Shown here piece by piece: positions 17,790 through 56,800 of a stretch of DNA of 64,000 bases. This DNA is from Maribacter spongiicola. GTDB taxonomy: Bacteria > Bacteroidota > Bacteroidia > Flavobacteriales > Flavobacteriaceae. Under the pieces are notes generated by a model, which did not search any database, had not been told where the DNA came from, and saw only the letters and a program-made list of their open reading frames with translations. How positions within the stretch are numbered: position 1 is the stretch's first letter; each line of letters opens with the position of its first letter. The stretch covers positions 1,453,098 to 1,517,097 of the forward strand of contig NZ_SOAY01000010.1 of NCBI RefSeq assembly GCF_004364165.1, read 5' to 3'. A program made the translations under genes and the position numbers.

Positions 17790-17850
17790 CAAATATGTAG
17801 TTATTATAGAATTTATTCTTATTGTTCAACTAGACAAAAACTCAACAAAC
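17790..17850 (-). promoter_or_regulatory. Direct-repeat operator and -7 element for GH2 gene
   Basis: On the minus strand two 11-mers, GTTTGTTGAGT and TTTTGTCTAGT (17850-17829), stand in tandem. CATATTTG (17797-17790), one mismatch from TAnnTTTG, follows exactly 31 bases later. Orientation and spacing equal those at the SusC1, galK, SusC2 and GH16 promoters, so it is assigned to the GH2 gene and not to the regulator at 17943 on the plus strand. Confidence 0.6.
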
Positions 17851-17942
17851 CTCAATTAATGGGAGTTTTTGAAAATAATGAACTAGACAATGTATATATT
17901 GATTTCTGAATTGAACTTTATAATAACGGGAAGATTTTTGGT

Positions 17943-19574
17943 ATGAACTATTCTTTACAAACTATGTTAAGATATTTAATTTCTTATTTAACGTTAGGTC
18001 TTTTAGTATGTCTATGTGGTGTGTTGTCGGCACAAACTATTAATAAATCGGATGAGTATTTTAAAAAAGCAGAGTCTTTAAAGGCAACGAATATTGATAG
18101 TGCTATTAATTTTTATAAGAAAAGTATACACTTACATAAAGAGCAAAAAGATACCGCTAACTTGGTAAATAGTTTATACGAGCTTTCTAATTTATATGCC
18201 CATAATTTAGATTATGGAAGTTCATACGATGGTTATTGGGAAGCTTTATTTCTTGCCGATAATTCAAAAAACGATGTAGCAAGAGCAAAATTATATCAAG
18301 CTTTGGGTTGGCTTTATTTATTTTATAGACGTGACAATGAAGCTAAAAATTACTTCAACCTTTCGCTAAGATTAAAGGATAAAATGATTGATAAAAAAGT
18401 TATAGATTCTACTAATGTATTAACTGATTATTATGCATTAATAACTTTGTTTAGAACCAATGGAAATAATAAAATGGTTCGTAAATATTTGGATAGTAGT
18501 AACCTTATTAAAAAACAATTTAAGATTACATCTAACTATTTAGATGCAGAAGAGGGCTACCAAGATGCGATTGACGGCAATTTTGAAATGGCATTACTTA
18601 AATTAAATAGAACTAGAAATGAGTTTACTTTAAAAAACCCGTCTTACTTAATTATAATAGACTACTTAATTGGTCAAGTATATTTTATGAAGGGTGATAT
18701 AAGAACGAGTAAAAAGTTTTTTGAACAATCATTAGCTTATACGAAGGTGTATAGTAATCATTCTAATTATAAGTTGATGGTGCAAGAAGCTTTGGCTCTT
18801 TTAGAAAAAGAGGAGAAAGATTTTGAAAGCGCTTTTTTTCATTTAGAGGCGGCAAATGAATTGAATGAATCAATTTTTGGTAGAAAGAGTAAGAATAATC
18901 AACATTTGTTTGAAATTAATGATAAGTATCGCTTGCAGAAAGAAAAAGAAAAAGAATTAATAAAAGAGCAGCGCCTGGCCAATTTGGAAAATGAAGAAAA
19001 GCTATGGGTATTAAAGTTTTCATTGATGTTTGTGGTTGTGGCTTCTTTGTTAATTCTTGGATTTTTATTCATTCGTAATATTAGACGTAAACATAAGCTA
19101 GAAAAAAAATCACTTGAAGAAAAGCGGGTTGTTGAATTACAGAAATCTAATGAAATATTAGAATTGAAGAATAATGAACTTACGTCTTCTGCATTGCAAT
19201 TGATAGAGAAAGAAGAGTTTATTAAAAAAATGAAAGATACTATTGGCAAGAATAGAGAAAATTTAGACGTTTCTGCTCTCAATAGAATTATTAATACTGC
19301 ACAAGGTAGCCCCAGCGGTAACTGGAAAGAATTTGAGGCCAGGTTTACTGCTATAAATCAAAGTTTTTATAAAAATCTTAAAGAAGCTTACCCTTCTTTG
19401 AGTCAAACAGACTTAAAACTTTGCGCACTGGTAAAGCTCAATTTTTCTAGTAAAGAAATGGCATCGCTTTTAGGTATTTCAATTGAAAGTATGCACACAT
19501 CTCGTTATCGTTTAAGAAAAAAATTGAAACTTGACCGTAATGATAATCTTACCGAATTTATAGCAAACCAATAA
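17943..19574 (+). CDS. TPR-transmembrane-HTH transcriptional regulator 1
   Basis: A 543-residue protein with a signal segment (about 11-30, ending LSAQ). Helical TPR-like repeats follow (about 35-310, with LYELSNLYAHNLDYG and IGQVYFMKGDIRTSKKFFEQSL), then a charged coiled coil, a transmembrane helix (355-378), a second coiled coil (380-440) and a C-terminal LuxR/GerE-like helix-turn-helix (about 484-543). The family places the TPR part outside and the DNA-binding part in the cytoplasm. A paralog of near-identical layout is at 45139-46773; both directly precede a SusC gene. It may sense galactan fragments or SusC activity and control the adjacent SusC1 operon. No phosphorylation domain is seen. 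Function is inferred from position. Confidence 0.85.
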   Translation: MNYSLQTMLRYLISYLTLGLLVCLCGVLSAQTINKSDEYFKKAESLKATNIDSAINFYKKSIHLHKEQKDTANLVNSLYELSNLYAHNLDYGSSYDGYWEALFLADNSKNDVARAKLYQALGWLYLFYRRDNEAKNYFNLSLRLKDKMIDKKVIDSTNVLTDYYALITLFRTNGNNKMVRKYLDSSNLIKKQFKITSNYLDAEEGYQDAIDGNFEMALLKLNRTRNEFTLKNPSYLIIIDYLIGQVYFMKGDIRTSKKFFEQSLAYTKVYSNHSNYKLMVQEALALLEKEEKDFESAFFHLEAANELNESIFGRKSKNNQHLFEINDKYRLQKEKEKELIKEQRLANLENEEKLWVLKFSLMFVVVASLLILGFLFIRNIRRKHKLEKKSLEEKRVVELQKSNEILELKNNELTSSALQLIEKEEFIKKMKDTIGKNRENLDVSALNRIINTAQGSPSGNWKEFEARFTAINQSFYKNLKEAYPSLSQTDLKLCALVKLNFSSKEMASLLGISIESMHTSRYRLRKKLKLDRNDNLTEFIANQ

Positions 19575-19682
19575 ATAAGAATTTTTCTAATCCTAAAAGT
19601 TCTTTAGTTTTTTATTCATAGCGTCATTTTTACTCTTCTTTTTAATTATTACTCAACGGTTTCTGAAAATACTATCAAAATT
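19575..19682. other. Gene-free spacer after regulator 1
   Basis: No gene and no convincing terminator are seen between the regulator stop and the operators of SusC1; read-through into the SusC1 operon is possible. Confidence 0.35.
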
Positions 19683-19702
19683 ACTGTCTAGTTGTGTTTA
19701 GT
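19683..19702 (+). promoter_or_regulatory. Additional upstream operator-like pair (10-bp period)
   Basis: ACTGTCTAGT and TGTGTTTAGT stand in tandem with a 10-bp period, 38 bases before the main SusC1 operator. The nnAGT ends match the other sites, but the period differs by one base and no -7 element is at the proper distance. Confidence 0.35.
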
Positions 19703-19740
19703 ATTGCTTAAAACACTGATAAATAAGTCTTTTTTTTATG

Positions 19741-19801
19741 ATTTGTTCAGTTTTTGTTGAGTCCTATTTCTTAAAATAACAATATCAAATTAATAATTTA
19801 G
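19741..19801 (+). promoter_or_regulatory. Direct-repeat operator and -7 element for SusC1 operon
   Basis: ATTTGTTCAGT and TTTTGTTGAGT are tandem 11-mers (19741-19762). TAATTTAG (19794-19801), one mismatch from the Bacteroidota -7 consensus TAnnTTTG, follows after 31 bases. Transcription would start near 19808, giving a leader of about 95 bases before ATG at 19903. Confidence 0.65.
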
Positions 19802-19902: not shown

Positions 19903-22900
19903 ATGAAGAAAAAGGACAAATTATGGAAGAGGATGCTTTCAGTGTTTTCTCTATTTGTAATCTTGGCAATGCAACAAGGTTTTGCCCAAGATGTAATTAA
20001 TGGATCCGTAAGTGATGAACAAGGTACGCCAATACCAGGTGCAACCGTTCTTATTGAAGGAACAACTAAAGGTGCCGTTGCCGATTTTGATGGAATTTTT
20101 TCAATCAATGCTGCATCAGGCGATGTTTTAGTGATTTCATCAATTGGTTTTAAAACTAAAAAGGTAAGTGTAGGTGCAAGTAAGAATTTGAAAATAGTTC
20201 TTGTTGAAGATCTTGCGCTGTTAGACGAAGTAGTAGTTGTAGGTTATGGTACTCAAAAGAAAAAAGAAGTAACCGGTGCTGTAGTACAAGTAAAGTCTGA
20301 TATTATTAGTATTGCCCCTGTATCTGATGTCAGTGAATCTCTACAAGGGCGAGTAGCGGGTGTAAATATTCAAGCTGCAAGTGGGCGTCCGGGTGAAGCT
20401 GCCAACATTCAAATAAGAGGTGTAGGGTCTTTGCTTGGTAGTTTAGAGCCATTATATGTTGTAGATGGGGTTCCTTATGAATCTAATCCAAACATTGCGC
20501 CTGATCAAGTAGAGACTATAGACATCTTAAAAGATGGTGCTGCGGCTTCTATTTATGGAGTAAGAGCTTCAAACGGGGTTATTTTAATTACGACCAAAAC
20601 TGGTAAAGAAGGGAAGTTGGGTGTTAACTTTTCAACGTACACAGGTATTCAGAATATAACTTCAGGAACACCTTTAATGAATACCCAACAACAGTTGTTT
20701 GCAGATTTTTCTGTAGATAATGTTTTAAACGCGGGTAACCTTCCAGGGTATTTTATTACTTCTCCTGAATTATTGGATTTTGATAGTGATTTCGTTGGAG
20801 ATGTACAAAACAACAACGCATTATTTAGAAACTATGAGTTAGGTATAAGCGGCGGATCTAAAGGTTTAAATTTAGGGTTCAGTACCAGTTATAACGACCA
20901 AGAAGGTGTGCTGATTAAATCTGGTTTTGACAGATTGAGTTCTAGACTGACAGCTAATTTTACTAAAGGAAAATTTAAGGCATTTGCTACTGTTGCCTAT
21001 ACAGAAGAAAATAGAGAGCAAGAGCCTTTTGCCTATTATGAATATAGTATTGGTCAAAACCCATGGCAGTTACCTTTAGGTGATTTAAATATTAGTGAAG
21101 ATAATGTAGTAACAATACCAGTAGATAATACGATCTATTTTGGCTTTTTAGCAAAACAATTATTGAACATTGATGATAGAAAAACAACTTCTACCAATAT
21201 TGCATTCAATATGGAGTATGAATTAGCGAAAGGATTGACTTATAAGTTGAGTTTAAGTAATAATAAATTTGATTATAATAGAAAATTCTTTAGACCTACA
21301 TTTTTAATTTATGGTAGAGATGGGGTAATAAATGCAACGGCTTCTACGCTTGAGGCTCAACTTCAAAAAGATTTTACCATGTCTACTAGAAGGGTGCTTG
21401 AAAATATGATAAACTACGATGTAAAATTCGGTGGTCATAAAGTAAACACAACAGTGGTATCTTCATATGAAGATTTTTCATCGGAACAACTTACCATAGG
21501 TGGTATTGGTTTCCCAACAAATAGTACACAAGAAATAGGTCAGGCTTTTTCTGCTACAACCCCCACCAGTTTTGTAAATAACTATACACTATCTGGTTTA
21601 TTGGGTAGAGTTCAATACAGTTTTGATGAACGTTACTTACTTTCCGCAAGTATTCGTAGAGATGGTTCTTCTAAATTCGGACCAGATAATAGATATGGTA
21701 CTTTTGGAGGTATATCAATAGGCTGGAATGTTGCCGAAGAAAATTTCTTTAAAAATTCATTTTTGGGCGATGCTGTCAATAACTTAAAGCTTAGAGCAAG
21801 TTATGCAGAATTGGGTAACCAAGATGTTCAGCCTTATGCTGCATCGACTCAAATTGAAACAGGTGTAAATTACTTATTCGGACCTAATGAAGCTATAGCT
21901 TCTGGTTTGATCCAAAGAAGAAATGCAAATCCGGATTTGAAATGGGAAACGAGTGTGTCGAAAAACATCGGACTTGATTTAGCTATGTTTCAAAATAAAT
22001 TGACCTTAACTGCTGATTTTTATAGTAATGATAAGCAAGATATGTTGTTGCCATTTCAAACACCACCGTCTTTAGGTACATCAGCACCTGGTGCAGAAAC
22101 CGTTTATAATCCAATATTTATTAATGCAGGTAAAATGACCAATGAAGGTATAGAAATTGCATTAGGATTTAAAAGTGAATTAAAAAATGGACTAAAATAT
22201 AATATCTCTTCTACGTTTACTAAAAACACCAATGAGATTGTAGATCTTAATGGAATAGAACGTGGGTACTCTAATGGTAGACCAACATTTTCTTTAGGTA
22301 ATAGTATAGATGAAACTACATTTTTTGCGGTAGGTCATGAGGCAGGAGCTTTTTTTCTACTAAGAAATGAAGGGGTAATTAAAACGGATGAAGAATTAGC
22401 AGAATACCAGCAAATCAATCCGTCTGCAGCAAAAGGTGACATACGCTATGCTGATGTAAACGGTGATAATGCAATTGATGATAACGATCGAGTTTATGCG
22501 GGATCTGGACAAGCAGAATGGGAAGCTGGTTTAAATCTTGATTTAAACTATAAAAACTTTGATCTATCGGTTCAGACGTACATGTCTTACGGTGCAGAGT
22601 TATTTAACGGGGCACGTTTTTTCGCCTACACTCAAGGTAGACATTTAGATCAATTTTATCAATGGTCTCCACAAAACCCTACTTCTGATATTCCAAGTTA
22701 TAGAAATAGCGAAGCTACGGAAAGCATTAGAGCAAGATCAGATTATTGGATAGAAGATGGTACGTATTTAAGAATTCGAAACATTACTTTGGGGTATTCT
22801 TTACCTCAAGAATTACTAGATAAAACCAAACTTGGTAGCATACGATTATATGTAACAGGCTTTAATCCTTTTACAGTAACTAATTATACTGGTTATGATC

Positions 22901-22998
22901 CAGAAGTTGGTGGTAACGGTATAAGCACAAGGGGTGTTGATAGGGGTAATTACCCTGTGGCTAGGCGTTTTGTTCTAGGGGCCAATATTAAATTTTAA
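19903..22998 (+). CDS. SusC-like TonB-dependent outer-membrane transporter 1
   Basis: A 1031-residue SusC/RagA protein that imports oligosaccharides across the outer membrane with TonB energy. Order: signal peptide ending QGFAQ (about 29), carboxypeptidase-regulatory-like domain (SVSDEQGTPIPGATVLIEG, about 33-110), TonB box region LDEVVVVGYGTQKKKEVTGAV, plug domain (PLYVVDGVPYES, IYGVRASNGVILITTK) and a C-terminal beta-barrel ending FVLGANIKF. It leads an operon with SusD1 (18 bases on) and a surface lipoprotein. Agar/porphyran oligosaccharides are the inferred cargo because a GH16 enzyme follows. Confidence 0.97.
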   Translation: MKKKDKLWKRMLSVFSLFVILAMQQGFAQDVINGSVSDEQGTPIPGATVLIEGTTKGAVADFDGIFSINAASGDVLVISSIGFKTKKVSVGASKNLKIVLVEDLALLDEVVVVGYGTQKKKEVTGAVVQVKSDIISIAPVSDVSESLQGRVAGVNIQAASGRPGEAANIQIRGVGSLLGSLEPLYVVDGVPYESNPNIAPDQVETIDILKDGAAASIYGVRASNGVILITTKTGKEGKLGVNFSTYTGIQNITSGTPLMNTQQQLFADFSVDNVLNAGNLPGYFITSPELLDFDSDFVGDVQNNNALFRNYELGISGGSKGLNLGFSTSYNDQEGVLIKSGFDRLSSRLTANFTKGKFKAFATVAYTEENREQEPFAYYEYSIGQNPWQLPLGDLNISEDNVVTIPVDNTIYFGFLAKQLLNIDDRKTTSTNIAFNMEYELAKGLTYKLSLSNNKFDYNRKFFRPTFLIYGRDGVINATASTLEAQLQKDFTMSTRRVLENMINYDVKFGGHKVNTTVVSSYEDFSSEQLTIGGIGFPTNSTQEIGQAFSATTPTSFVNNYTLSGLLGRVQYSFDERYLLSASIRRDGSSKFGPDNRYGTFGGISIGWNVAEENFFKNSFLGDAVNNLKLRASYAELGNQDVQPYAASTQIETGVNYLFGPNEAIASGLIQRRNANPDLKWETSVSKNIGLDLAMFQNKLTLTADFYSNDKQDMLLPFQTPPSLGTSAPGAETVYNPIFINAGKMTNEGIEIALGFKSELKNGLKYNISSTFTKNTNEIVDLNGIERGYSNGRPTFSLGNSIDETTFFAVGHEAGAFFLLRNEGVIKTDEELAEYQQINPSAAKGDIRYADVNGDNAIDDNDRVYAGSGQAEWEAGLNLDLNYKNFDLSVQTYMSYGAELFNGARFFAYTQGRHLDQFYQWSPQNPTSDIPSYRNSEATESIRARSDYWIEDGTYLRIRNITLGYSLPQELLDKTKLGSIRLYVTGFNPFTVTNYTGYDPEVGGNGISTRGVDRGNYPVARRFVLGANIKF

Positions 22999-36621: not shown

Positions 36622-37848
36622 TTATTTTGCTTTTTCTCCTTTTGCGGCATGGGTAGTTTTTCTTTCAGATGTAAAGCTCATTATACTTTGGTAATCACTA
36701 TTATTGTAGATATGTGAAAGCCCCCAACGTAAAATTTCAGTCGGTTCTTTTTCATTGTCAGCTGATCTGTCTAAACCAATTGCATGTGCGGAAACCCCAG
36801 GAATTACTGACATTATCTCAAAATTAATACCATCTGGTGCCCATTGAATTGTGTTTTTTTCAGGACCATCTGTAGTAATTAAGGCAGCAATACCATCATT
36901 ATAAGGCCATACGCAAATTTCGTGTCCGCTATTGCTGATAGGGTTGTAAGGTGATTTTACATATGGACCCAGTGGGTTATCTGCAATAGCAACTCCATGA
37001 CGAATTTGTCTACCTCCAAAAGTGATTTTTTCTCCCATTTGTTCTCCTTTATAATACAAATAGAATTTCCCCTTGTAAGGAATAATGCATGGGTCATGTA
37101 CTTTATGACTGTCAAAATCTCCTTTTTTCTCTACTAAAAATCTGTTTTGTTCTTCTCCTTTCCAAACACCATTGTCTGCCGGGCTTAAAATAGGCTCTTC
37201 ACTTTTGGTCCATGGTCCGTTAGGTGAATCTGACCATGCCAACCCTACTTGATTTTTGACTCGAACATTATAAGGTGATTTTACCGTTTGGTAGCATAAA
37301 TAATACTTATCCTCAAATTTCATGATTTCTACCGTAAACACTGAGCGGTCATCATAAGTTCCTTTTTCGCCTCTTGCTACTGCTAGACCTTCTTCTTTCC
37401 AAGTTTCACCATCTTCAGATGTTGCATACCAAATATCGCAGCGATCCCACGGAAAAACTTTGTCATTTTCAATGTCGCCGCCAAAACCTTGAGACGGTCC
37501 TACACTTTTACTATACCAAACGTAATATTTTCCATTTTCTTTAATGACGGCACTAGGGTCTCTTCTTACGACACCTTCTTCATACGCCAAGTCACCCTTT
37601 AAAGGTTTAAGATTAGAAAATTGAATAAACCATTCATTTCCTAAATCTTGTGGCCATTGTAACGCTCTTTTTGAAGCGGCACTTAATGAGTCTCGATTAG
37701 TAATACCTAATTCATCTATAAGCTCATCGGTAATTGTTATTTCTTCTTCTACTGTCTGCTTTTCTTTTTCAGTTTTTTTAGTTTCTGAACATGCGGTAAA
37801 GATGAACAAACATGCTAGTGATAATAATCTAATATTATTTTTTTTCAT
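36622..37848 (-). CDS. GH117 exo-alpha-1,3-(3,6-anhydro-L-galactosidase), lipoprotein
   Basis: A 408-residue GH117 enzyme that releases 3,6-anhydro-L-galactose from the non-reducing end of neoagaro-oligosaccharides. Lipobox FTAC (Cys20); an N-terminal helical arm with the family's [11 protein letters not shown]; then a five-bladed propeller. Asp97 (RRDPSA) and Asp252 (VHDPCI) fall at the residue numbers of the two catalytic acids of Zobellia AhgA, and His309 (SNSGHEIC) is in the place of its general-acid His302. Length is typical. It follows galK by 84 bases on the same strand, so D-galactose and anhydrogalactose release appear co-controlled. Activity on porphyran-type ends is possible. Confidence 0.92.
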
Positions 37849-37932: not shown

Positions 37933-39093
37933 TCAAGCTAGATTACAATATAAATTGTTGGTTTTGATACTAGTACCTTCACTTGGCATTGCTTCGAAAG
38001 CGGTTAATTTAATATTGAATTTATTATAATATGCGCTGGTGGCTTCTTCAATAAATTGCGGTACCGCATCTTCATGTATTAGATTTATGGTGCAACCACC
38101 AAAACCACCACCCATCATTCTCGCTCCAAGAATGGCATCATAATTTTTAGAAAAATCAACTAAAAAGTCAAGTTCTGGGCAGCTTACGTCATAAAGGTGC
38201 TGTAAACCATGGTGGGTCTCAAACATGTATTTTCCTAATTGGTGTAGAGATGATTCTTTTAAGGCTTCTACCGATTTCAACACACGTTCTTTTTCTTCAA
38301 TGATATACGTACAGCGATTAAAAACATCTTCAGAAAGTTCATTTTTAAATTCAGCTAACATGGTCATCGAAACATCGCGTAAAGAACTTACCTCATTATA
38401 TTTTTCATGAATAATCGCTACCCCTTCTTCACATTGACTCCGACGCACATTGTACTCGCCAGAAGCTAAATTATGCGAAACATTCGTATTCAATAAAAGA
38501 ATTTTATATGGAGCAATTGCTATGGGAACATACTCATAATCAAGAGATTTACAATCTAACAAGATTACATGCCCTGCTTTGCTCATTACTGAGCTGAATT
38601 GATCCATGATACCACATTTTGTACCCACATAATTATGTTCTGCACGTTGAGATAATGCTACGATTTCTTGTTTCGAGAGTCCTAATTCAAAAAGTTCGTT
38701 TAGTCCGTATGCAATGCCGCATTCTAAAGCGGCCGAAGAGCTAATACCTGATCCTACAGGTATGTCGCTATCTAAAATACAATCGAACCCTTTTAGCTTA
38801 TCGGTCAGTTGCTGTAGTTCATATATAACTCCCAAAACATAATTTTCCCACTGGTTATCGCTCGTACTAATATTATTAAGTTCAAAAGTTAGACTTGCGT
38901 TAAAATTGCAACTATGAATATTACAGGTCGTGGCACTTTCATTTTTATTGAATTTGAGTTGAATTTTTTTATCAATGGCTGTAGGAAGTACAAAGCCGTT
39001 ATTGTAGTCGGTATGCTCACCAATAATATTTATTCTACCCGGAGAGTCGATAATTAAATCCCAATTTTTCGAATTAAATTCTATTTCCTTCAT
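37933..39093 (-). CDS. galK: Galactokinase
   Basis: A 386-residue GHMP kinase that phosphorylates D-galactose at C1 with ATP. Signatures are GRINIIGEHTDYNNGFVLP (19-37), the ATP loop PVGSGISSSAALE, GIMDQFSSV and the C-terminal GARMMGGGFGGCTI. The gene opens a unit with GH117 and is preceded by the direct-repeat operator at 39237-39258. It would receive galactose made by GH2, mutarotated by GalM, and freed from 6-O-methylgalactose by the P450 system. GalT and GalE are not in the window. Confidence 0.96.
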   Translation of the reverse strand: MKEIEFNSKNWDLIIDSPGRINIIGEHTDYNNGFVLPTAIDKKIQLKFNKNESATTCNIHSCNFNASLTFELNNISTSDNQWENYVLGVIYELQQLTDKLKGFDCILDSDIPVGSGISSSAALECGIAYGLNELFELGLSKQEIVALSQRAEHNYVGTKCGIMDQFSSVMSKAGHVILLDCKSLDYEYVPIAIAPYKILLLNTNVSHNLASGEYNVRRSQCEEGVAIIHEKYNEVSSLRDVSMTMLAEFKNELSEDVFNRCTYIIEEKERVLKSVEALKESSLHQLGKYMFETHHGLQHLYDVSCPELDFLVDFSKNYDAILGARMMGGGFGGCTINLIHEDAVPQFIEEATSAYYNKFNIKLTAFEAMPSEGTSIKTNNLYCNLA

Positions 39094-39197: not shown

Positions 39198-39258
39198 ACA
39201 ATGTACAGATACTGTATATGTTCTCAAGTAAATCTAACTTGACAAAAACTGAACAATA
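39198..39258 (-). promoter_or_regulatory. Direct-repeat operator and -7 element for galK-GH117
   Basis: On the minus strand TATTGTTCAGT and TTTTGTCAAGT are tandem 11-mers (39258-39237). TACATTGT (39205-39198) follows after 31 bases and matches TAnnTTTG with two mismatches. The predicted leader is about 98 bases, close to the SusC1 and SusC2 leaders. Confidence 0.6.
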
Positions 39259-41221: not shown

Positions 41222-41243
41222 TTTTATATTTTTAATGCTGATT

Positions 41244-42796: not shown

Positions 42797-42819
42797 TTTT
42801 AAATGTATTAGTGTTTTTA

Positions 42820-45138: not shown

Positions 45139-46773
45139 ATGAAAAAAACACTGTCTGTATTATGTTTGCTTGCCATTACATTACTTAATGCACAAAATAA
45201 TATAAAAGATATTAGTGCTCAACAAGCTTTTGAAAGAGCATTAGAATTGAGATTTCAAAATCCTGATAGCGCAGTTGCTTTGTTAGATTTTAGTAGTAAA
45301 AAATATTTACAATTAAATGATACCCTTGGTGCAACTTATAGTTTGTTGGAAAAAGCTTATGTTTTCGAAAATATTGCACGATACGCAAACTCATATGATG
45401 CATTATGGACAGCTTTAATTTTAAATGATAATAGAGAAGATGATAAACTGAAATCTATAATTTTCGTTAGACTAGGCAGAATATACAGTTATAATAAAAG
45501 AGTAAAAGAGTCTTATAAGTATTTACAATCTTCTTTAGAACTACAAAAAAGAAGAGTAGAAAAAATGAACCTTAAAAAGTCTGAACTAGTACCTTATTAT
45601 TACTCTTTAGCAAAGACAAGTAGAGAGTTGGAAGAAAATAAAGTTGCTCGTATTTATTTAGATAGTTGTTATTTATATTTTTCTGATGACGTTGATATTA
45701 AGCCATTAGCCCATTTAGAGTATGGTGGTAAAGAGTATCTTGATTTTGAAAAGGCTGTTTTATTAGAAAGAGAAGATAATAATGAAGATGCAATAGGATT
45801 AATGGAGGATGTAATACCTTATTTTCAAGAAAATGAGCCAACCTATCTCGTATTAATATATAAGTATTTAGGCGATATGTATTTTAATCTTTCTGATTTA
45901 AAAAAAAGTGAAGAACTTTATAGAAAATCTTTAAATATTTCAGAGGAATACAAAAGTCATGTAGATTTTACACCATTGGTCTATGAGAATCTAACTAGAT
46001 TATACCTATTAAAAAATGATTATAAGAACGCCTTTAAAAGTTTAGAGAAGGCTAAGGAGTTGGATGCTAAATTTTTTGATGGTAGAAGTTCTATAAACCA
46101 ATCTTTATTAGAAATAAAAGATAATTATCGATTAGAAAAGGATAGACAAGAAAAACAAATTCAACAACAGTACTTAAAGCAACTCGAGCAAGAAGAAGAG
46201 ATAAGTAAACTTCAAATGATTATTTTGTTAGGGTCTATTTTCTTTATCATAATAATAGGTTATGGCTATTTTAATTACCTAAGAACCAAACATAGAAATG
46301 AAAAAGCATTCATAAAAAGAAATAAGGAACTGGAAATACAAAAGCAACAGGTTCTTATTGATATAAAGAATAAAGAATTAGCATCTTCAGCACTTCAGCT
46401 AATAGAAAAAGATGAATTTTTGAAAGAGATAAAATCTAAGGTACGTGTAGGTAACGATAAGATTAAAATTCATGAAATTAATAAGGTGCTAAGATCAATC
46501 TCGTCTAATAATAATAATAATTGGGATGAGTTTAAGCATCGGTTTATATCAGTGAACAAAGAGTTTTATGATAAGATTTTCGAGAAATTCCCCAATTTAA
46601 GTCAAAGTGATCAAAAAATATGTGCTTTGATAAAATTAAACATGTCTAGTAAAGATATGGCGAGGTTGTTAGGTATATCTGTAGAGTCTGTGCATACTTC
46701 AAGACATCGTATTCGTAAAAAAATGAATCTACCTAGAAATGTCAATTTAGAAGATTATATTAATTCAATTTAA
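45139..46773 (+). CDS. TPR-transmembrane-HTH transcriptional regulator 2
   Basis: A 544-residue paralog of the regulator at 17943-19574: signal peptide ending LLNAQ (about 19), TPR-like helices (about 25-310), coiled coil (330-356), transmembrane helix (358-380), second coiled coil, and the HTH domain (about 487-544). The HTH core ALIKLNMSSKDMARLLGIS is shared almost residue for residue with the first protein. It precedes the SusC2 operon by 594 bases. Each SusC/D pair thus has its own regulator, which suggests partner-specific sensing. Confidence 0.85.
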   Translation: MKKTLSVLCLLAITLLNAQNNIKDISAQQAFERALELRFQNPDSAVALLDFSSKKYLQLNDTLGATYSLLEKAYVFENIARYANSYDALWTALILNDNREDDKLKSIIFVRLGRIYSYNKRVKESYKYLQSSLELQKRRVEKMNLKKSELVPYYYSLAKTSRELEENKVARIYLDSCYLYFSDDVDIKPLAHLEYGGKEYLDFEKAVLLEREDNNEDAIGLMEDVIPYFQENEPTYLVLIYKYLGDMYFNLSDLKKSEELYRKSLNISEEYKSHVDFTPLVYENLTRLYLLKNDYKNAFKSLEKAKELDAKFFDGRSSINQSLLEIKDNYRLEKDRQEKQIQQQYLKQLEQEEEISKLQMIILLGSIFFIIIIGYGYFNYLRTKHRNEKAFIKRNKELEIQKQQVLIDIKNKELASSALQLIEKDEFLKEIKSKVRVGNDKIKIHEINKVLRSISSNNNNNWDEFKHRFISVNKEFYDKIFEKFPNLSQSDQKICALIKLNMSSKDMARLLGISVESVHTSRHRIRKKMNLPRNVNLEDYINSI

Positions 46774-47207: not shown

Positions 47208-47268
47208 TTGTGTCAAGTTATTGTGCAGTTGTAAAATGGCAAAAAAAATAGAGTTATAATTAGTTTTA
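47208..47268 (+). promoter_or_regulatory. Direct-repeat operator and -7 element for SusC2 operon
   Basis: TTGTGTCAAGT and TATTGTGCAGT are tandem 11-mers (47208-47229). TAGTTTTA (47261-47268), one mismatch from TAnnTTTG, follows after exactly 31 bases. The predicted leader of about 93 bases matches SusC1. Confidence 0.62.
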
Positions 47269-47367: not shown

Positions 47368-50300
47368 ATGATTATGAAAAAACAATTTTTTGAATTTTTA
47401 AAAAAATGCTTTCTGTCGGGACTGTTCTTTGCCCTACTGAGCATGAACAGCGCAATTGGTCAAGAGACCATTTCAGGAACAGTAACCGATAATTTAGGAC
47501 CTGTAGTTGGGGCCAATATTTTAGTGAAAGGATCGGCTAACGGTACACAGACCGATTTCGACGGTAATTTTTCAATTCAAGCATCACCAGATGATGTTTT
47601 ATTAATATCCTATATAGGGTATGCATCACAGTCGATAAAGGTTGGAGGTCAGAAAACTATTAATATAGTATTGGCAGAAGACGCAAGTTTGTTAGATGAA
47701 GTAGTAGTAATTGGTTATGGTACCTCTAAAAAAAGCGATCTTACCGGTGCTGTTTCTCAAGTAACGGCCAAATCATTTGAAAACCAACCATTGACTCGTG
47801 TAGAAGATGCATTGCAAGGTAGGGCAGCAGGGGTGTCAGTTTCAGGTTCTGGTGCACCAGGTGCAGGTATTAAAGTAAGGGTAAGAGGGGTTAACTCTAT
47901 AACAGGTAACAATGACCCGCTAGTTGTAGTTGATGGTGTTTTTGGAGGAGATTTGAGAACCATCAACCCAAATGATATTGCTTCTATAGAGGTATTAAAA
48001 GATGCTTCATCGTTGGCAATTTATGGTTCTAGAGCTTCAAATGGTGTAATTTTGGTGACCACTAAGAAAGGAGCCGGTAAAGCCAAAATTAGCTTCGATC
48101 ATTTCGTATCAATAAGTAGTCAAGCTAGAAGTATTGAAACATTAGGTTCTGGTGATTTTGCTAGACAAAAAAATGCAGGGTTAATTGCAAACGGTGCAGA
48201 TCCAGCATATACAGAACAACAAATATCTGCTCTTGATGCTAACCCAATCAATTACGAAGATCAATTGTTTCAAACAGGTATAGGAACAAATACGCAGTTG
48301 GCAGTAAGTGGCGGCAAAGATAATTTAAGATACTTCGTTTCTGGTAACTATGTAAACCAAACTGGTACGGTTATTAGTAATGAATATGAGCGATTCTCTT
48401 TACGTTCTAACATTAATCTTGATGTTACAGATAAATTATCGGTAGGTGTAAATTTATATGGTAGTAGAGAATCAGAGGTGAATAACCCAGATGATTTTAA
48501 TCGTTTTAAAGGGAGTAGTATTTTAAAGACGTTAACATGGGATCCAACACTACCTGTACAAGATAGTGATGGTAATTTTATTACAAGTTCAAATTTTGCA
48601 AACAATGGATTTAATCCAATAGGTACTTTATTAAGAAGTAATAGAGATCGTGCTGCTGATCGTTTAAATACTAATATTAATGTTGGTTATAAGTTTACAA
48701 ATCATTTTAAATATAGTCTTGTTGTAGGGGCGTCTACAATAAATCAAAATATTGAGTCTTTTATACGAGATGATAACCCTTCCGATGCTAATCCCGATCA
48801 TACACGTGTTGCATATACTAATTTTCGAAACACAAGTCATCAGGTAAGTAACATTCTTAATTATAACAATAGTTTTAATAAACATAATCTTGATATTACA
48901 GGGGTATATGAATTTCAAGGAGACCGTAATACTTTTAATAGTTACAATACATTCGCTATAGCTACAGGCGGAATTTATTTAGCCGATAATGAAGATCAAT
49001 CAAGAGAAAATTTTACTAATGATGGTAATCAAAATGCGATACAATCTTATTTAGGTCGTGTTCAATACAATTATAACAACTCACTTTATTTAACTGGATC
49101 TATGCGTATTGATGAGTCTTCTAGGTTTGCAAAAGGTAATAGAACAGGGTATTTTCCTTCTGGTGCAATTGCTTATAGTTTTAATAATTTGCCGTTTCTT
49201 GAAAATGGTACAACTTTAAGTAGTTTAAAGTTAAGAGCTGGCTGGGGTCAGGTAGGTAATCAGAATATAAACTCTACAGCACGTTTTTCTTTGACCAATG
49301 ATGCTGGTAATTATCCTTTTGACGGCTCTACATTGGTGTCTGGATCAACTCTTACACAAGTTGGTAATCCAGATTTGACTTGGGAGACAACTTCACAAAC
49401 AAACATTGGTGTTGATATTGGGTTTTTTAGTGGAAGACTTAATGCGTCTGTAGATTATTTTAAAAAAACTACAGAAGACCTCTTATTAAGAACTATAATT
49501 CCAGGAACATCTTTTGCGAAATTTGAAAATGCTGGGGTCGTTGATAATCAGGGTATCGACTTTTCTTTGGCTGGAACCATTGTCCAAAATGATAATTTCA
49601 CTTGGGATTCTTCCTTCAACCTTTCATATGTTACTAACGAAGTAACTGAATTGGTGAACGATGTTGATCAAATATTAGGAAATATTAGACCCGTAGATGG
49701 TACTGAAAATTCTATAAATGTAATTGAGCTTGGTCAACCATTGGGTCAATTTTACGGTCTTACGTTTTTAGGTACATGGAAATCAACTGATGTTTTGCCA
49801 GAAGGTATTCAGGCAGGTGATGCGAAGTATTTGACCGATGAAGAGGGCAACTCGGTTTTTTCTACTATCGGTAATGGGTTGCCAACCTTAACATGGGGTT
49901 TTAATAACACATTTACTTATAAAAATTTGAGCTTGAACGTATTCATAAATGCAGCACATAATTTTGATGTTTATAACCAAGTTGCGGCAGCAATTAATGG
50001 TGGTGCTGGTGATTTTAGAGATGACCTTTCTCCGTTAAGTGTAAATAAATGGACTCCTCAAAATGAAACAGATATACCACGAAGAGGTTCACTGAATGTT
50101 TTGAATTCTTCGCGATATGTTGAAGATGGTAGTTTTGTAAGATTAAGTAATTTAAAATTAGGCTACACATTTGACGAAGTGATAAAAGGTATTGAAAGCC
50201 TTCAAGTTTATGTCAGTGGGCAAAATTTATTATTACTAACTGACTACACTGGATATGACCCAGAGGTATCTTCTACACCGGTTAATCAAGATTTGAACAA

Positions 50301-50382
50301 TACAGATGCAGGAGCCGGTATTGATATAGGGGCTTACCCTAACCCAAGAACATTGACATTAGGTCTTAAACTTCAGTTTTAA
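47368..50382 (+). CDS. SusC-like TonB-dependent outer-membrane transporter 2
   Basis: A 1004-residue SusC/RagA protein: signal peptide ending SAIGQ, carboxypeptidase-regulatory-like domain (TVTDNLGPVVGANILVKG), TonB box region LDEVVVIGYGTSKKSDLTGAV, plug (PLVVVDGVFGG, IYGSRASNGVILVTTKKG) and barrel ending LTLGLKLQF. ATG at 47368 is given; ATG at 47374 (MKKQFF) is equally plausible. It is followed by SusD2 after 11 bases. It differs enough from SusC1 to suggest a different oligosaccharide size or modification; that is inference. Confidence 0.97.
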   Translation: MIMKKQFFEFLKKCFLSGLFFALLSMNSAIGQETISGTVTDNLGPVVGANILVKGSANGTQTDFDGNFSIQASPDDVLLISYIGYASQSIKVGGQKTINIVLAEDASLLDEVVVIGYGTSKKSDLTGAVSQVTAKSFENQPLTRVEDALQGRAAGVSVSGSGAPGAGIKVRVRGVNSITGNNDPLVVVDGVFGGDLRTINPNDIASIEVLKDASSLAIYGSRASNGVILVTTKKGAGKAKISFDHFVSISSQARSIETLGSGDFARQKNAGLIANGADPAYTEQQISALDANPINYEDQLFQTGIGTNTQLAVSGGKDNLRYFVSGNYVNQTGTVISNEYERFSLRSNINLDVTDKLSVGVNLYGSRESEVNNPDDFNRFKGSSILKTLTWDPTLPVQDSDGNFITSSNFANNGFNPIGTLLRSNRDRAADRLNTNINVGYKFTNHFKYSLVVGASTINQNIESFIRDDNPSDANPDHTRVAYTNFRNTSHQVSNILNYNNSFNKHNLDITGVYEFQGDRNTFNSYNTFAIATGGIYLADNEDQSRENFTNDGNQNAIQSYLGRVQYNYNNSLYLTGSMRIDESSRFAKGNRTGYFPSGAIAYSFNNLPFLENGTTLSSLKLRAGWGQVGNQNINSTARFSLTNDAGNYPFDGSTLVSGSTLTQVGNPDLTWETTSQTNIGVDIGFFSGRLNASVDYFKKTTEDLLLRTIIPGTSFAKFENAGVVDNQGIDFSLAGTIVQNDNFTWDSSFNLSYVTNEVTELVNDVDQILGNIRPVDGTENSINVIELGQPLGQFYGLTFLGTWKSTDVLPEGIQAGDAKYLTDEEGNSVFSTIGNGLPTLTWGFNNTFTYKNLSLNVFINAAHNFDVYNQVAAAINGGAGDFRDDLSPLSVNKWTPQNETDIPRRGSLNVLNSSRYVEDGSFVRLSNLKLGYTFDEVIKGIESLQVYVSGQNLLLLTDYTGYDPEVSSTPVNQDLNNTDAGAGIDIGAYPNPRTLTLGLKLQF

Positions 50383-52044: not shown

Positions 52045-55000
52045 ATGCAAGTCAAATACCTAAAGATGAATAATTCATTTATAAAACCTTGGTTTTATGT
52101 GTTAGCGTTTTTTTCCTTTTCATGTAATTCTTTCTCAGACGATAAAAAGGAAACAGTTACCACTTCCTCCCCTAAGTTATTTACAGAAATTACCTCTTCC
52201 AGTACTGGTATTTATTTTAATAATACACTTACAGAAACTGTAGACTCTAATTATTACCAATATATGTATACTTACATCGGGGCTGGGGTAGCTGCTGGTG
52301 ATATCAATAATGACGGTTTAGTTGATCTTTACTTTACTGCAAATTCAGCACCAGACAAGCTGTATCTAAATTTAGGTGATTTAAAATTTAAAGATATCAC
52401 TGAAGAAGCTGGTATTTTAAATCTTCCTGGTTTTAATACAGGTGTTACCATGGCCGATGTTAATGGCGATGGTTTATTGGATATTCATGTATCTCGTGGT
52501 GGTTGGTTGGATCAAAATGGTCAATTCGATAACTTAGTATACCTAAATAATGGAGATTTAACTTTTGAAGAAAAAGCTAAAGAAATAGGTCTAGCAGATA
52601 GTAACAGAACAATACAGGCTACTTTCTTTGATTTTGATAGAGATAATGATCTTGATGTCTATGTGTCGAATACACCAGATATAACGAGCAGAACAAAAAT
52701 AGTAGATTTAAATAAGGTTCATAGCAATCCAAAAACTATGGAGCTAAAAGGTAGTGATAGACTTTATAAAAATGATGGTTCTGGTCATTTTACAGATATT
52801 TCTTTAGAAGCCGGGTTGTATTATGATATAGGTTTTGGCTTAAACCCACAAGTTGGTGATCTTAACAATGATGGTTGGTTAGATATCTATGTTTGTAACG
52901 ATTTTAATTATCCTGATCTTGCCTATATAAATAATGGTGATGGCACATTTAAAGAGTCTAGTAAAACCATGTTTAAACACATGTCATTTAATAGTATGGG
53001 CAGTGATTTGGCTGACATGAACAATGATGGTCAATTAGATTTAATTACTCTTGATATGAACCCTGAAGATTATAAACGGGCTAAACTAAATATGGGTATG
53101 ATGCCAATCAGTCAATTTGAGATGATGGTAAATCAAGGCTATCATCATCAGTATGTTCATAACATGCTTCAAGTTAATAATGGTAATGGCACCTTTAGTG
53201 AAATATCTAAAATGGCAGGTGTTGCCGATACCGACTGGTCTTGGGCAGTTTTGGCAGCCGATTTTAATTTAGATGGTCTTAATGATATTTTTATAACTAA
53301 TGGTATTTACAGAGATGTAATGAATCGTGATGTTATAGAGTCTACAATGGACATTCTGCGTTCAAGAGGGAGAAAACCTACCGATGAAGATTTTTTAGAA
53401 TTCACTAAAATGTTACCCCAGCAAAAATTAAAAAATTATTTATTTCAAAATAATGGGAACAATACTTTTTTAAATGCATCCGATATTTGGGCAACGATGA
53501 CTCCATCACTTTCTAATGGTGCAACTTATGCCGATTTGGATAATGATGGTGACCTGGAAATTATTGTAAATAATATCAATCAAGAAGCTATAATCTTAAA
53601 AAATAACTCAATAGAACAAAAACTAGGTAATTTCATAAAAATAGAATTAGAAGGAGTAGATAAAAACAAATATGGTGTAGGCGCTAAAGTCACCTTAGTG
53701 TTTGATGATACATCTATACAAACTAAAGAATTAACTAATACTAGAGGCTTTTTATCTTCTGTTGCGAATACATTGCATTTTGGACTACCAAAAAATAAAA
53801 ATCCGAATAAAATAGTAGTGCAATGGTCAGATAATAGCACTAAAGAGTACACGACATTTAAAGTGAATCAAACAAATAGAATAAATTATGAAGAAGGTGT
53901 CGCCGCTAAAATAAGTGAAGAAGTAAAGAAACCTATATTTGAAAAGCAACCTTATGTTTTTGAACATAAAGAAGAGTATTTCAATGATTTTGATTTACAG
54001 CTTTTACTACCACATAAAATATCTCAGTCAGGACCAGGTTTGGCTGTAGGCGATATTAATGGTGATGGAAATGAAGAAGTTTATATTGGTGGGGGTAAAA
54101 ATCAAGCTGGTCAGTTAATTTCAATTGGTCAATCTAAAGAACGTCTTTTCTCAATACATACATTCGATATAGATAAGATGTTTGAAGATCAAGGTGCTTG
54201 CTTTTTTGATGCCGATGGTGATGGTGATTTAGACTTATACGTAGTTAGCGGTAGTTATGAAGATTATAGAAACGCCAGGTATGCACAAGACCGGTTATAC
54301 TTAAATAATGGCAAAGGTGAATTTACAAGGTCACTTACAGCATTACCAGAAATTACGTCAACTGGTTCTGTGGTTGTTTCTGGTGATATTGATTTAGATG
54401 GAGATTTGGATCTTTTTGTAGGTGGTAGAGTAATACCAGGTCAATACCCGTTTGCACCATCAAGTTTTATATTACGTAATAACGAAGGTAAGTTTTCTCG
54501 TGTAGAAGGTTTATTGGCTCCTGAATTAGAAAAAGTGGGTATGGTAACCGATGCCAAATGGGTAGATATTAATAATGACAAATTGTTAGATCTGGTCGTT
54601 GCTGGAGAGTGGATGGGTATTGAGATATTCATTAATGAATCGGGTAAATTTAAAAAGAGCGATGCATATAAAACCTTATCTAAATCGATAGGGTGGTGGA
54701 ACAAAATTGAAGTTCAAGATATTGATCATGATGGAGATTTAGATATCATAGCTGGTAATTTAGGTTTAAATCATAAACTAAAGGCAAGTTATGAAGACCC
54801 ATTATCGATTTTTGCTAATGATTATGATCGAAATGGTTCTGTTGATATAGTCATTGCAAAGGAAATTGATGGTAAGAACATGCCTATTAGAGGAAAAGTG
54901 GATTTAGCGAAACAAATGCCCTACTTAGTAAACCGTATAGATACGCATGAACAATTTGCAAAACTAGATTTAGATGCTATTCTAGGAGGCAAAGTAGGTG

Positions 55001-55401
55001 AACCTTTATATATTGCAACTGAATTTAGGTCTGGAATATTTATAAATGTAGACAACGAGTCTTTTGTATTTCAACCATTTGAAAGTCAGGTTCAACAATC
55101 TCCAATAAATAGTATTTTATATGAAGATTTTGATTATGATGGTATTTTAGATCTGCTGCTTGCAGGAAACAATTACCAAACAGAAGTTGAAACTACTCGT
55201 GGTGATGCAGGTATTGGCTTCTTTTTAAAAGGTAGTGAAAAGGCTACGTTTAAACTGATACCACATTTAGAATCAGGCTTTTTTACTGATAAAGACGTTA
55301 GAAATATGGGGTTTTTGAAATCAAAGAAAAAAACTACAATAATAGTAGCAAACAATAATGGTGCACATGATTTTTTTACGTTACTTCCTAAAAGTAGATA
55401 G
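52045..55401 (+). CDS. FG-GAP/VCBS-repeat lipoprotein with ASPIC/UnbV domain
   Basis: An 1118-residue surface lipoprotein; ATG at 52066 (MNNSFIKP) is an alternative start. The lipobox is FSFSC. Many DxDxDG-type calcium loops occur in FG-GAP repeats (GDINNDGLVDLYF, ADVNGDGLLDIHV, GDLNNDGWLDIYV, ADLDNDGDLEIIV, GDINGDGNEEVYI), forming one or two beta-propellers. An ASPIC/UnbV module (about 530-615, GVGAKVTLVFDD, ANTLHFGL) lies between the two propeller halves. No enzyme motif is seen. Such proteins often sit beside SusC/D pairs in marine Bacteroidota; glycan or cell-surface binding is a guess. Its own short upstream region (51972-52044) has no copy of the operator. Confidence 0.88.
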   Translation: MQVKYLKMNNSFIKPWFYVLAFFSFSCNSFSDDKKETVTTSSPKLFTEITSSSTGIYFNNTLTETVDSNYYQYMYTYIGAGVAAGDINNDGLVDLYFTANSAPDKLYLNLGDLKFKDITEEAGILNLPGFNTGVTMADVNGDGLLDIHVSRGGWLDQNGQFDNLVYLNNGDLTFEEKAKEIGLADSNRTIQATFFDFDRDNDLDVYVSNTPDITSRTKIVDLNKVHSNPKTMELKGSDRLYKNDGSGHFTDISLEAGLYYDIGFGLNPQVGDLNNDGWLDIYVCNDFNYPDLAYINNGDGTFKESSKTMFKHMSFNSMGSDLADMNNDGQLDLITLDMNPEDYKRAKLNMGMMPISQFEMMVNQGYHHQYVHNMLQVNNGNGTFSEISKMAGVADTDWSWAVLAADFNLDGLNDIFITNGIYRDVMNRDVIESTMDILRSRGRKPTDEDFLEFTKMLPQQKLKNYLFQNNGNNTFLNASDIWATMTPSLSNGATYADLDNDGDLEIIVNNINQEAIILKNNSIEQKLGNFIKIELEGVDKNKYGVGAKVTLVFDDTSIQTKELTNTRGFLSSVANTLHFGLPKNKNPNKIVVQWSDNSTKEYTTFKVNQTNRINYEEGVAAKISEEVKKPIFEKQPYVFEHKEEYFNDFDLQLLLPHKISQSGPGLAVGDINGDGNEEVYIGGGKNQAGQLISIGQSKERLFSIHTFDIDKMFEDQGACFFDADGDGDLDLYVVSGSYEDYRNARYAQDRLYLNNGKGEFTRSLTALPEITSTGSVVVSGDIDLDGDLDLFVGGRVIPGQYPFAPSSFILRNNEGKFSRVEGLLAPELEKVGMVTDAKWVDINNDKLLDLVVAGEWMGIEIFINESGKFKKSDAYKTLSKSIGWWNKIEVQDIDHDGDLDIIAGNLGLNHKLKASYEDPLSIFANDYDRNGSVDIVIAKEIDGKNMPIRGKVDLAKQMPYLVNRIDTHEQFAKLDLDAILGGKVGEPLYIATEFRSGIFINVDNESFVFQPFESQVQQSPINSILYEDFDYDGILDLLLAGNNYQTEVETTRGDAGIGFFLKGSEKATFKLIPHLESGFFTDKDVRNMGFLKSKKKTTIIVANNNGAHDFFTLLPKSR

Positions 55402-55588
55402 TGATTTTTTTAATCAAATTAATTGGCACATATTGCGAACTAAATTCCTCGGTACAGACAGGTGAGGTTGTATTTAGACAATAATACGGGTTAATTCTAT
55501 ATTTTTAAAAACGATAGATAAGCTCAATTAAGCCACAAGAAACATTAGCTTGCTAATTGAGAAATAACCTTGTAGTATGTTTAAAAAG

Positions 55589-55630
55589 AATGAGGTCATA
55601 TTTAATATATTTATTAGATGTGACCTCATT
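55589..55630. terminator. Bidirectional terminator between FG-GAP and GH16 genes
   Basis: AATGAGGTCA (55589-55598) pairs with TGACCTCATT (55621-55630) across an AT-rich 22-base loop. T runs follow on the plus strand and A-rich sequence precedes it, so it can serve both converging genes. The 187 bases between the FG-GAP stop and this stem hold no gene. Confidence 0.65.
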
Positions 55631-55646
55631 TTAAAATCAATTTCAT

Positions 55647-56717
55647 CTAGTTTTCAACAGGTTTGAAAATTCTGATCCAGTCAATAGTAAAGTCATTATC
55701 GGAAATTGATAATTCTGTATCGGTAGGTATTACGGCTTTACCATTTATAGCTCGCCACCCTTGTTCTTCAACACTGAATATAATATCCATTTCTTTAGAT
55801 AGCCCAGTTCTGGTGTCATTACTTGTATCACCTGGGTTTGTTGAATTTGTAAAATATAAAGGGTCGATTTGGTCTTTCCCTTCTCTTTTAGTTACAAGTT
55901 CGCCGTCAATATAATAATATAAATTGAAAGGGTCTTTCCAGTAAACACCATATCTATGAAAAGAGTCTTTCCAAAGTGTATTTCCAGCACCGTCATTTCG
56001 AGTGATCCACGTTGGGTTTGGTGCTGGGTTACCATTACCACTAACTAGCTCGCTAGGTTGCCAATCTTGAAATGGATCTCTAATGAATACATGGTGGCTA
56101 ACATGCATTCTCTCTGCGTACCATGAAAGATCACCATTTGCACTCTCTGAAAAACTAGCTCCGTAGCCTTCCATAAAGTCTATTTCTTGAGTGTCATCTG
56201 GGCTTAGTAGCCAAGCGCCATTTGCCAATACCGAATTCATGATTTTGATATTTGCCTCTATATATACCGGGTATTTAACAGTTTGGTTAGAATGTATAAC
56301 ACCCGCATTAACTCTGTCGTTTTCAAAACGTGAAGCAGTTAACTTTAAAGTGCCATTTTCTACAAATGAGTGATCTCTTGACCAAGTGGTGGAACCTGGT
56401 CCTGACCAAGCATTATGATACCAGTCGTCCCATTTATCTAAAAATATAGCACTTTTGTTCGAAGCCTCAGCTTCATATTCAAAATCATCGGAAACACTTT
56501 CTTGAAACTCCCACGTCATACCAGAACCTGCATCTGCGGGTACGGGTATTGTAATCCAGGTTTCTTCGATAACCTCTTCTTCATTTTCTTCTTCCTCCTC
56601 AGTTATGACTTCTTCCTCCAACTCTTTCTGTTCTGTAGTTGGTTCATCTGAAGTAGATGTTGAACAACTAACTACAATAAAATTTGTAAGCACTATCAGC
56701 AATACTATTTTTTTCAT
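55647..56717 (-). CDS. GH16 beta-agarase/porphyranase-type lipoprotein 2
   Basis: A 356-residue GH16 enzyme. ATG at 56717 (MKKIVLLIVL) is chosen because it gives a proper lipoprotein signal (VVSC, Cys18); the in-frame ATG at 56798 lies inside the operator and upstream of the predicted transcription start. An acidic linker covers about 31-52. Catalytic EIDFME gives Glu178, Asp180 and Glu183; AERMHVSHHVFIRDPFQDW, YYYIDGELVTK and the ending IDWIRIFKP follow the agarase pattern. It differs from GH16 copy 1 by longer loops (for example ELVSGNGNPAPNPTW), so its cleavage preference may differ. It converges with the FG-GAP gene. Confidence 0.9.
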   Translation of the reverse strand: MKKIVLLIVLTNFIVVSCSTSTSDEPTTEQKELEEEVITEEEEENEEEVIEETWITIPVPADAGSGMTWEFQESVSDDFEYEAEASNKSAIFLDKWDDWYHNAWSGPGSTTWSRDHSFVENGTLKLTASRFENDRVNAGVIHSNQTVKYPVYIEANIKIMNSVLANGAWLLSPDDTQEIDFMEGYGASFSESANGDLSWYAERMHVSHHVFIRDPFQDWQPSELVSGNGNPAPNPTWITRNDGAGNTLWKDSFHRYGVYWKDPFNLYYYIDGELVTKREGKDQIDPLYFTNSTNPGDTSNDTRTGLSKEMDIIFSVEEQGWRAINGKAVIPTDTELSISDNDFTIDWIRIFKPVEN

Positions 56718-56740
56718 TACAAGGATTTTTACACTTTGAT

Positions 56741-56800
56741 TAAAGATAAAAAACAAGTAATTTTTTCTCTGATATTCAACTGTACTAAAACTGAACAATC
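56741..56800 (-). promoter_or_regulatory. Direct-repeat operator and -7 element for GH16 copy 2
   Basis: On the minus strand GATTGTTCAGT and TTTAGTACAGT are tandem 11-mers (56800-56779). TATCTTTA (56748-56741), one mismatch from TAnnTTTG, follows after 30 bases. The leader would be only about 17 bases, unlike the roughly 95-base leaders of SusC1, SusC2 and galK. Confidence 0.58.

Follow-up and report, generated by a model that had tools for sequence, protein, structure and literature searches.

The window analysed here, a 64,000-nucleotide stretch of the genome of Maribacter spongiicola, contains five copies of a tandem 11-bp repeat, located before the target genes designated GH2, SusC1, galK, SusC2 and GH16 (Table 1). 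These five copies are a real, conserved operator. They are most likely the operators of one regulon for the uptake and breakdown of agar- or porphyran-type galactans, read by two proteins of the window which join tetratricopeptide repeats (TPR) to a helix-turn-helix (HTH) part and are here called TPR-HTH 1 and TPR-HTH 2. The motif, its period and direction, its spacing to the promoter box (mainly in Flavobacteriaceae) and its association with TPR-HTH genes were all computed directly.

Five operators and their promoter boxes

A preliminary description of the window had reported two tandem 11-mers of the form nnTTGTnnAGT at each of five promoters, all in the same orientation and followed 30 or 31 bases downstream by a -7-like element. 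All five 22-mers were present where they had been placed, each faced the gene downstream of it, and 31 or 30 bases intervened between operator and element. The sites matched the consensus nnTTGTnnAGTnnTTGTnnAGT at 0–1 mismatch in the 14 specified bases of a 20-base core. Counted from the last base of the operator, a TAnnTTTG-like octamer started at offset 32 in the GH2, SusC1, galK and SusC2 promoters and at 31 in that of GH16, with five of the six specified letters in four boxes and four of the six in the galK box.

A comparison with a congener covered four of the five promoters. Before GH2, 19 of the 20 bases of the core of operator 1 and all eight bases of the box were kept; the SusC1 and SusC2 boxes were kept at 8/8 and 7/8 bases. 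At the galK promoter operator 3 was intact (20/20), the 31-base spacer was identical at just 14 positions, and the box (6/8 kept) retained TACATT at an unchanged distance.

Exact matches to the pattern numbered three in the 4.46-Mb genome, all of them window operators, and four places matched with one mismatch, including the two remaining window operators. Since the pattern was derived from the five window sites, this count is partly circular, and a non-circular matrix was built from 90 sites in other organisms, leaving out the window and its nearest relative, a congener (L148). By this out-of-sample matrix the five operators scored 20.5 to 29.4 bits, whereas nothing else in the window exceeded 9.4 bits, and first-order Markov sequence gave 0.025 places of at least 18 bits per 64 kb. 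The other 68 pattern matches in the genome reached 18.0 bits at best, and just one of them, at 13.1 bits, was accompanied by a 5/6 box at offset 31–33. Chance resemblance in AT-rich promoters would be favoured by the frequency of the pattern at up to two mismatches (73 matches in the genome, versus 56 for the reversed control), but it is refuted by the out-of-sample matrix and by the period and spacing controls given below; we give it next to no probability. No convincing further member of the regulon was found among the contexts of the 73 matches, and because no other strong, box-bearing match occurred among sites with up to two mismatches genome-wide, the regulon seems to consist of these five promoters.

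A solitary half-site, TTGTCTAGT, lies upstream of operator 1 (Table 1). At its position a congener (L096) has ATGTCTAGT, and in three loci (L128, L216 and L225) a second two-unit site with at most one mismatch lies 43 bases upstream of another; a role of the solitary half-site as an auxiliary element is only suggested. Around 123 operators, extra half-sites on the operator's strand numbered 11 in each of the 5-base bins -25 to -21, -35 to -31 and -45 to -41, versus 2, 0 and 1 on the opposite strand. This signal is weak, because the bin at -140 to -136 also held 11 and one opposite-strand downstream bin held 10.

Conservation of period, placement and spacing

Conservation was followed in a named set of 80 loci around relatives of the window TPR-HTH protein, whose record titles range from Maribacter, Zobellia, Algibacter and Tenacibaculum to Saprospiraceae and Cytophagales. 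Of these loci, 57, belonging to many genera, contained the motif at up to one mismatch. With the two units 11 bp apart there were 22 exact matches and 91 at up to one mismatch. Each of the control periods (9, 10 and 12–16) gave no exact match and one to four at up to one mismatch, and the reversed motif gave none of either kind. A second set, of 38 loci, has genomes in common with the named set and includes eight loci owing to their exact match; it gave 16 exact matches and 38 at up to one mismatch for period 11, versus 0 and 0–2 for the other periods. An inverted arrangement of half-sites occurred exactly nowhere and twice at up to one mismatch in 79 named loci.

With the congener excluded, 89 of 90 sites were intergenic, though only 16% of the DNA is, and 81 of the 86 sites with a next open reading frame (ORF) pointed towards it. 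The ORFs pointed at were SusC (20), GH117 (14), GH2 (12), GH16 (2), galK (2), a TPR-HTH gene (1) and others (30).

For the spacing, a set of 65 sites outside ORFs was used (0–2 mismatches, those with two mismatches only where at most 500 bases before an ORF), from which five window and four congener rows were removed, leaving 56 sites of other genera. A box of 5/6 or better stood at offset 32 in 21 of these and at offset 33 in nine, whereas elsewhere between offsets 1 and 61, offset 31 included, the count was 0–2. In the named set, which overlaps this one in genomes, the 91 sites had the box at offsets 31, 32 and 33 in 8, 38 and 13 cases and in no more than five at any other offset, so that 59 of the 91 carried the TAnnTTTG-like -7 box of Flavobacteriaceae sigma-A promoters at 31–33. 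These results supported the earlier claim that one operator at a fixed distance from the box unites the five promoters.

The preliminary description had further likened the operator to a class II-type activator site, that is, one overlapping the -33/-35 element. Mapped flavobacterial transcription starts, in the available text of PMC9723704, assign positions -12 to -5 to the sigma-A box; the operator therefore covers about -63 to -44 and is centred near -53.5, next to the -33 region on its upstream side and free of overlap with it, and the class II assignment was not supported. At each distance of 22–26 bases before the box, a TTG was present in only 0–4 of 58 aligned promoters, indicating that there is no strong -33 TTG. 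An upstream operator together with a missing strong -33 TTG is what is expected of an activated promoter. The TPR-HTH proteins might instead bind the operator as repressors, the sign being left undecided by sequence alone; however, the operator lies upstream of the core of the polymerase footprint and the promoters have no strong -33 TTG, and repression is considered unlikely.

Candidate readers of the operator

Three kinds of reader had been put forward: AraC-type domains (those of a hybrid two-component system (HTCS) regulator or of an AraC-family protein, both encoded in the window), PhoB-like dimers and the TPR-HTH proteins. The last fit best and, judged by comparison of genomes, are the most likely readers; HTCS and AraC are made unlikely by co-occurrence, and for PhoB-like dimers the comparison covered the geometry described above. 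Full-length TPR-HTH proteins number two in the M. spongiicola genome; the genes of both lie in the window, each immediately preceding a SusC gene from which an operator separates it. A further match in the genome (C1:866640-867104) covers the HTH part alone and sits in a 934-aa open frame.

Among 299 genomes of the family, at least 20 have a TPR-HTH relative (E ≤1e-60; four candidates scored per genome). The exact motif had 34 matches in the 299 genomes, 20 of them in 12 of the 20 TPR-HTH genomes (reversed control, 1); the other 279 genomes had 14, versus 20 for the control. These tallies were made by eye, and Fisher tests on them are inflated by relatedness. When 28 of the 34 exact matches were examined for context, 13 of 14 in TPR-HTH genomes were intergenic, versus 5 of 14 elsewhere, and a 5/6 box at offset 31–33 accompanied nine of the 14 in TPR-HTH genomes and five of the 14 elsewhere. 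Of the five intergenic matches elsewhere, one (in G117) lies 93 bases past the end of a diverged TPR-HTH gene missed by the 1e-60 cut, and two (G195 and G077) have HTH relatives 4–6 kb away on the same contig; near the remaining two (G123 and G064) no TPR-HTH or HTH relative was found.

Substrate and regulator are confounded in this comparison, since all 20 TPR-HTH genomes also carry a GH117 relative. Another regulator tied to galactan loci might thus read the operator, with TPR-HTH, whose binding is putative, as a mere neighbour. However, among genomes with GH117 the exact site occurred in 12 of 20 with TPR-HTH and in none of eight without. Furthermore, two distant loci from two genomes (L101 and L106), whose diverged TPR-HTH genes encode proteins 33% and 32% identical to TPR-HTH 2, have an exact site, and their stretches had no match to the window SusC, GH2 or GH117 at E 1e-15; L106 had been picked by its site alone and was then found to have the TPR-HTH gene adjacent. 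The exact site beside the diverged TPR-HTH gene of G117 argues likewise. Such another regulator is therefore regarded as quite improbable. In both L101 and L106 the site is the same exact sequence, TTGTAAAGTTATTGTAAAGT.

The HTCS, which would read the operator through its AraC-type domain, is encoded in the same window; HTCSs are known as regulators of such loci (PMC3878776, in its available part), and 7 of the 11 other genomes with the exact motif yielded an orthologue (E ≤1e-200, with 21 candidates scored in each genome). In the other four, none was found among the candidates scored, whereas at least five of the eight GH117 genomes with neither TPR-HTH (E ≤1e-60) nor an exact site have one. 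A HTCS homologue was present in just 4 of the 57 site-bearing named loci, and at the promoter of the HTCS gene in the window nothing reached 8 bits. Moreover, tandem sites in Bacteroides HTCS motifs are on average 21 bp apart, as reported in the accessible text of PMC3878776, versus 11 bp here (periods 9–16 were scanned). On period and co-occurrence the HTCS was rejected as a likely reader, and its probability is put very low.

The gene of the AraC-family protein neighbours TPR-HTH 2, orthologues of at least 50% identity occurred in 5 of the 11 other exact-motif genomes, and homologues in 11 of the 57 site-bearing named loci; however, orthologues at this level were missing from the other six genomes, and one genome (G248) has an orthologue (65%) yet neither a TPR-HTH relative at 1e-60 nor an exact site. 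No place of at least 8 bits was present in the AraC promoter of the window, the 9.4-bit place lying inside the AraC gene. This protein was likewise rejected as a likely reader, on co-occurrence, and is given as small a probability as the HTCS.

Several points weigh against reading of the operator by the TPR-HTH proteins. Eight of the 20 TPR-HTH genomes have no exact site. The one-mismatch excess is modest (145 versus 84 for the control in 19 TPR-HTH genomes; 16 versus 17 in nine others), and in G019 and G050 the control exceeds the motif. Five of the 14 exact matches in genomes without TPR-HTH also have a 5/6 box at offset 32–33, three of them within ORFs. Since only four candidates were scored per genome, some TPR-HTH genomes may have been missed, and the 80 named loci, chosen by TPR-HTH, contain it by construction. 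No site with at most one mismatch was found in 23 of these loci, for which the only explanations seen are divergence and sites lying beyond the stretches examined. Outside Flavobacteriaceae, just 2 of 15 sites (12 loci, grouped by record title) have a box at 31–33, so that the fixed spacing rests mainly on that family.

Within the TPR-HTH proteins, TPR_12 scored above its cut-off in both, in agreement with a TPR sensor. The HTH part may be of LuxR/NarL type, judging from profile matches: GerE fell just below its cut-off in TPR-HTH 2 (21.5 versus 23.5 bits; none was listed for TPR-HTH 1), and the match to EsrB was weak (E = 0.007). A strong hydrophobic stretch around residue 358 is common to both proteins. 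An N-terminal hydrophobic stretch was present in TPR-HTH 1; in TPR-HTH 2 none was above the cut, and the model has a helix at residues 2–23. The AlphaFold model of TPR-HTH 2 (mean predicted local distance difference test score 82, predicted template modelling score 0.58) comprised TPR helices at 27–313, a long helix at 329–437 and the HTH at 489–528; a structure search with the whole model returned generic TPR folds. Structure model and hydropathy together fit a membrane sensor. The last 60 residues of the two proteins are identical at 38 positions, and no difference that would point to separate codes for TPR-HTH 1 and TPR-HTH 2 was seen by eye in the site lists.

Coordinates of the operators, boxes and genes of the window are collected in Table 1. 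The TTG start listed at 56798 for the second GH16 gene falls within operator 5, and translation more probably begins at the ATG at 56717. The GH117 name of the gene downstream of galK is a label of the preliminary description; only GH43 was obtained from Pfam. A FG-GAP/ASPIC-UnbV protein (52045-55401, +) is encoded after SusD2 and has homologues in 27 of the 80 named loci. A run of genes at 39302-43974 (-), from P450-like to esterase-like, stops just before operator 3; nothing at its promoter reached 8 bits by the out-of-sample matrix, and the run may serve the use of porphyran methyl sugars. A gene for an IclR-family regulator (35727-36518, -) stands amid sugar-catabolism genes.

Table 1. Operators, promoter boxes and genes in the 64,000-nucleotide window (scores in bits are from the out-of-sample matrix; offsets are counted from the last base of the operator)
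Feature	Position	Strand	Remarks
Operator 1, before GH2	17829..17850, core 17829-17848	-	0 mismatch; 28.2 bits; 302 bases from GH2 start codon
-7-like box CATATTTG, GH2 promoter	17790..17797	-	offset 32; 5/6
Solitary half-site TTGTCTAGT	17882..17890	-	42 bases upstream of operator 1
Operator 2, before SusC1	19741..19762, core 19743-19762	+	0 mismatch; 24.6 bits; 141 bases from start codon
-7-like box TAATTTAG, SusC1 promoter	19794..19801	+	offset 32; 5/6
Operator 3, before galK-GH117	39237..39258, core 39237-39256	-	0 mismatch; 29.4 bits
-7-like box TACATTGT, galK promoter, weak	39198..39205	-	offset 32; 4/6
Operator 4, before SusC2	47208..47229, core 47210-47229	+	1 mismatch; 20.5 bits; 139 bases from start codon
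-7-like box TAGTTTTA, SusC2 promoter	47261..47268	+	offset 32; 5/6
Operator 5, before second GH16 gene	56779..56800, core 56779-56798	-	1 mismatch; 22.3 bits; 62 bases from ATG 56717
-7-like box TATCTTTA, GH16 promoter	56741..56748	-	offset 31; 5/6
HTCS gene	2628-6917		candidate reader in the preliminary description
GH2 target gene	15005..17527	-	Pfam GH2 domains
TPR-HTH 1, proposed regulator	17943..19574	+	TPR_12 above cut-off; co-occurrence tests; directly upstream of SusC1
SusC1 target gene	19903..22998	+	TonB receptor Pfam domains
So-called GH117 gene, downstream of galK	36622..37848	-	label of the preliminary description; Pfam: GH43 (PF04616) only
galK target gene	37933..39093	-	TIGR00131 galactokinase above cut-off
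AraC-family gene	44132-44989		adjoins TPR-HTH 2
TPR-HTH 2, proposed regulator	45139..46773	+	TPR_12 above cut-off; GerE below cut-off; structure model; directly upstream of SusC2
SusC2 target gene	47368..50382	+	TonB receptor Pfam domains
So-called second GH16 gene	55647..56717	-	label of the preliminary description; ATG at 56717; no Pfam family at E ≤1e-5

Proposed mechanism and comparison with known systems

TPR-HTH would be a single-pass inner-membrane one-component activator, with periplasmic TPR, a transmembrane helix continuous with a coiled coil, and an HTH of LuxR/NarL-like kind in the cytoplasm; the periplasmic sensing and cytoplasmic binding are suggested by the layout of the proteins. 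A fragment of agar or porphyran may be sensed in the periplasm. The coiled coil could then set two HTH units on adjacent turns and the same face of the DNA, 11 bp apart, each unit reading one TTGTnnAGT. Bound at about -63 to -44, TPR-HTH might bring in RNA polymerase carrying sigma-A at promoters that have the TAnnTTTG-like box and lack a strong -33 TTG. The binding, activation rather than repression, the dimer geometry, the periplasmic sensing and the sugar signal are what we infer.

HTCS regulons of Bacteroides, as described in the available text of PMC3878776, are similar in that a membrane-spanning regulator controls glycan loci through direct repeats, in tandem, ahead of SusC/SusD and enzyme operons; they differ in the period given above. 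In addition, Pfam at E 0.001 found in the TPR-HTH proteins none of the domains that HTCSs have (an AraC-type HTH, a kinase and a receiver). SusR-like regulators of Bacteroides, in the same text, are one-component, control SusC/SusD operons and have direct-repeat sites; however, their tandem sites are 67 or 77 bp apart, versus 11 bp here, a spacing by which the operator differs from SusR-like ones. MalT has a TPR-like sensor and a LuxR-type HTH, acts at direct repeats and is cytoplasmic with an ATPase part. The TPR-HTH proteins may share a LuxR-type HTH with MalT and the LuxR/NarL activators, the likeness to EsrB being weak as noted above, and differ from MalT in their predicted membrane segment and 11-bp period.

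BT3442, remarked in part of the literature to hold TPR motifs, defines a family (NCBIfam NF053779) to which the TPR-HTH proteins matched weakly at residues 233-541 and 266-542; membership was rejected, the scores of 25.3 and 42.1 bits comparing with an equivalog cut-off of 940. Membership in the FimS sensor kinase family (NF053520) was also rejected (36 bits versus 600, for a match to the TPR and membrane portion of TPR-HTH 1).

In gene make-up, the known likeness is to the cluster ZGAL_4657-4669 of Zobellia galactanivorans, which has a TonB receptor/SusD pair in tandem, GH117 and two regulators and is induced by agar and less so by porphyran (PMC5613140); its description there, as far as available, names no operator, unlike the present loci. 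A locus of Zobellia uliginosa (L181) contains SusC, SusD, ASPIC, TPR-HTH and GH117 genes with the operator before SusC, and by analogy the agar induction of the similarly composed Z. galactanivorans cluster is consistent with the proposed regulon.

The regulatory systems proposed for glycan loci of Bacteroidota are, in the available text of PMC10316084, SusR-like, HTCS and extracytoplasmic function (ECF) sigma/anti-sigma systems. No TPR-HTH regulator with an operator was described in the titles and abstract openings returned by searches of the open PMC literature, outside which most subscription papers lie. TPR-HTH probably represents a further class of glycan-locus regulator beside SusR, HTCS and ECF sigma/anti-sigma, present in several orders of Bacteroidota and using a common 11-bp tandem code, TTGTnnAGT twice, which in Flavobacteriaceae lies 31–32 bases before the -7 box, with the two paralogues of the window sharing one operator set. 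If this is true, the common code at its set distance from the box would allow TPR-HTH regulons to be read from genomes; red-algal galactan regulons of marine Bacteroidota would become predictable through a defined operator and a named regulator, and a reporter could be used to identify which fragment of agar or porphyran is the signal.

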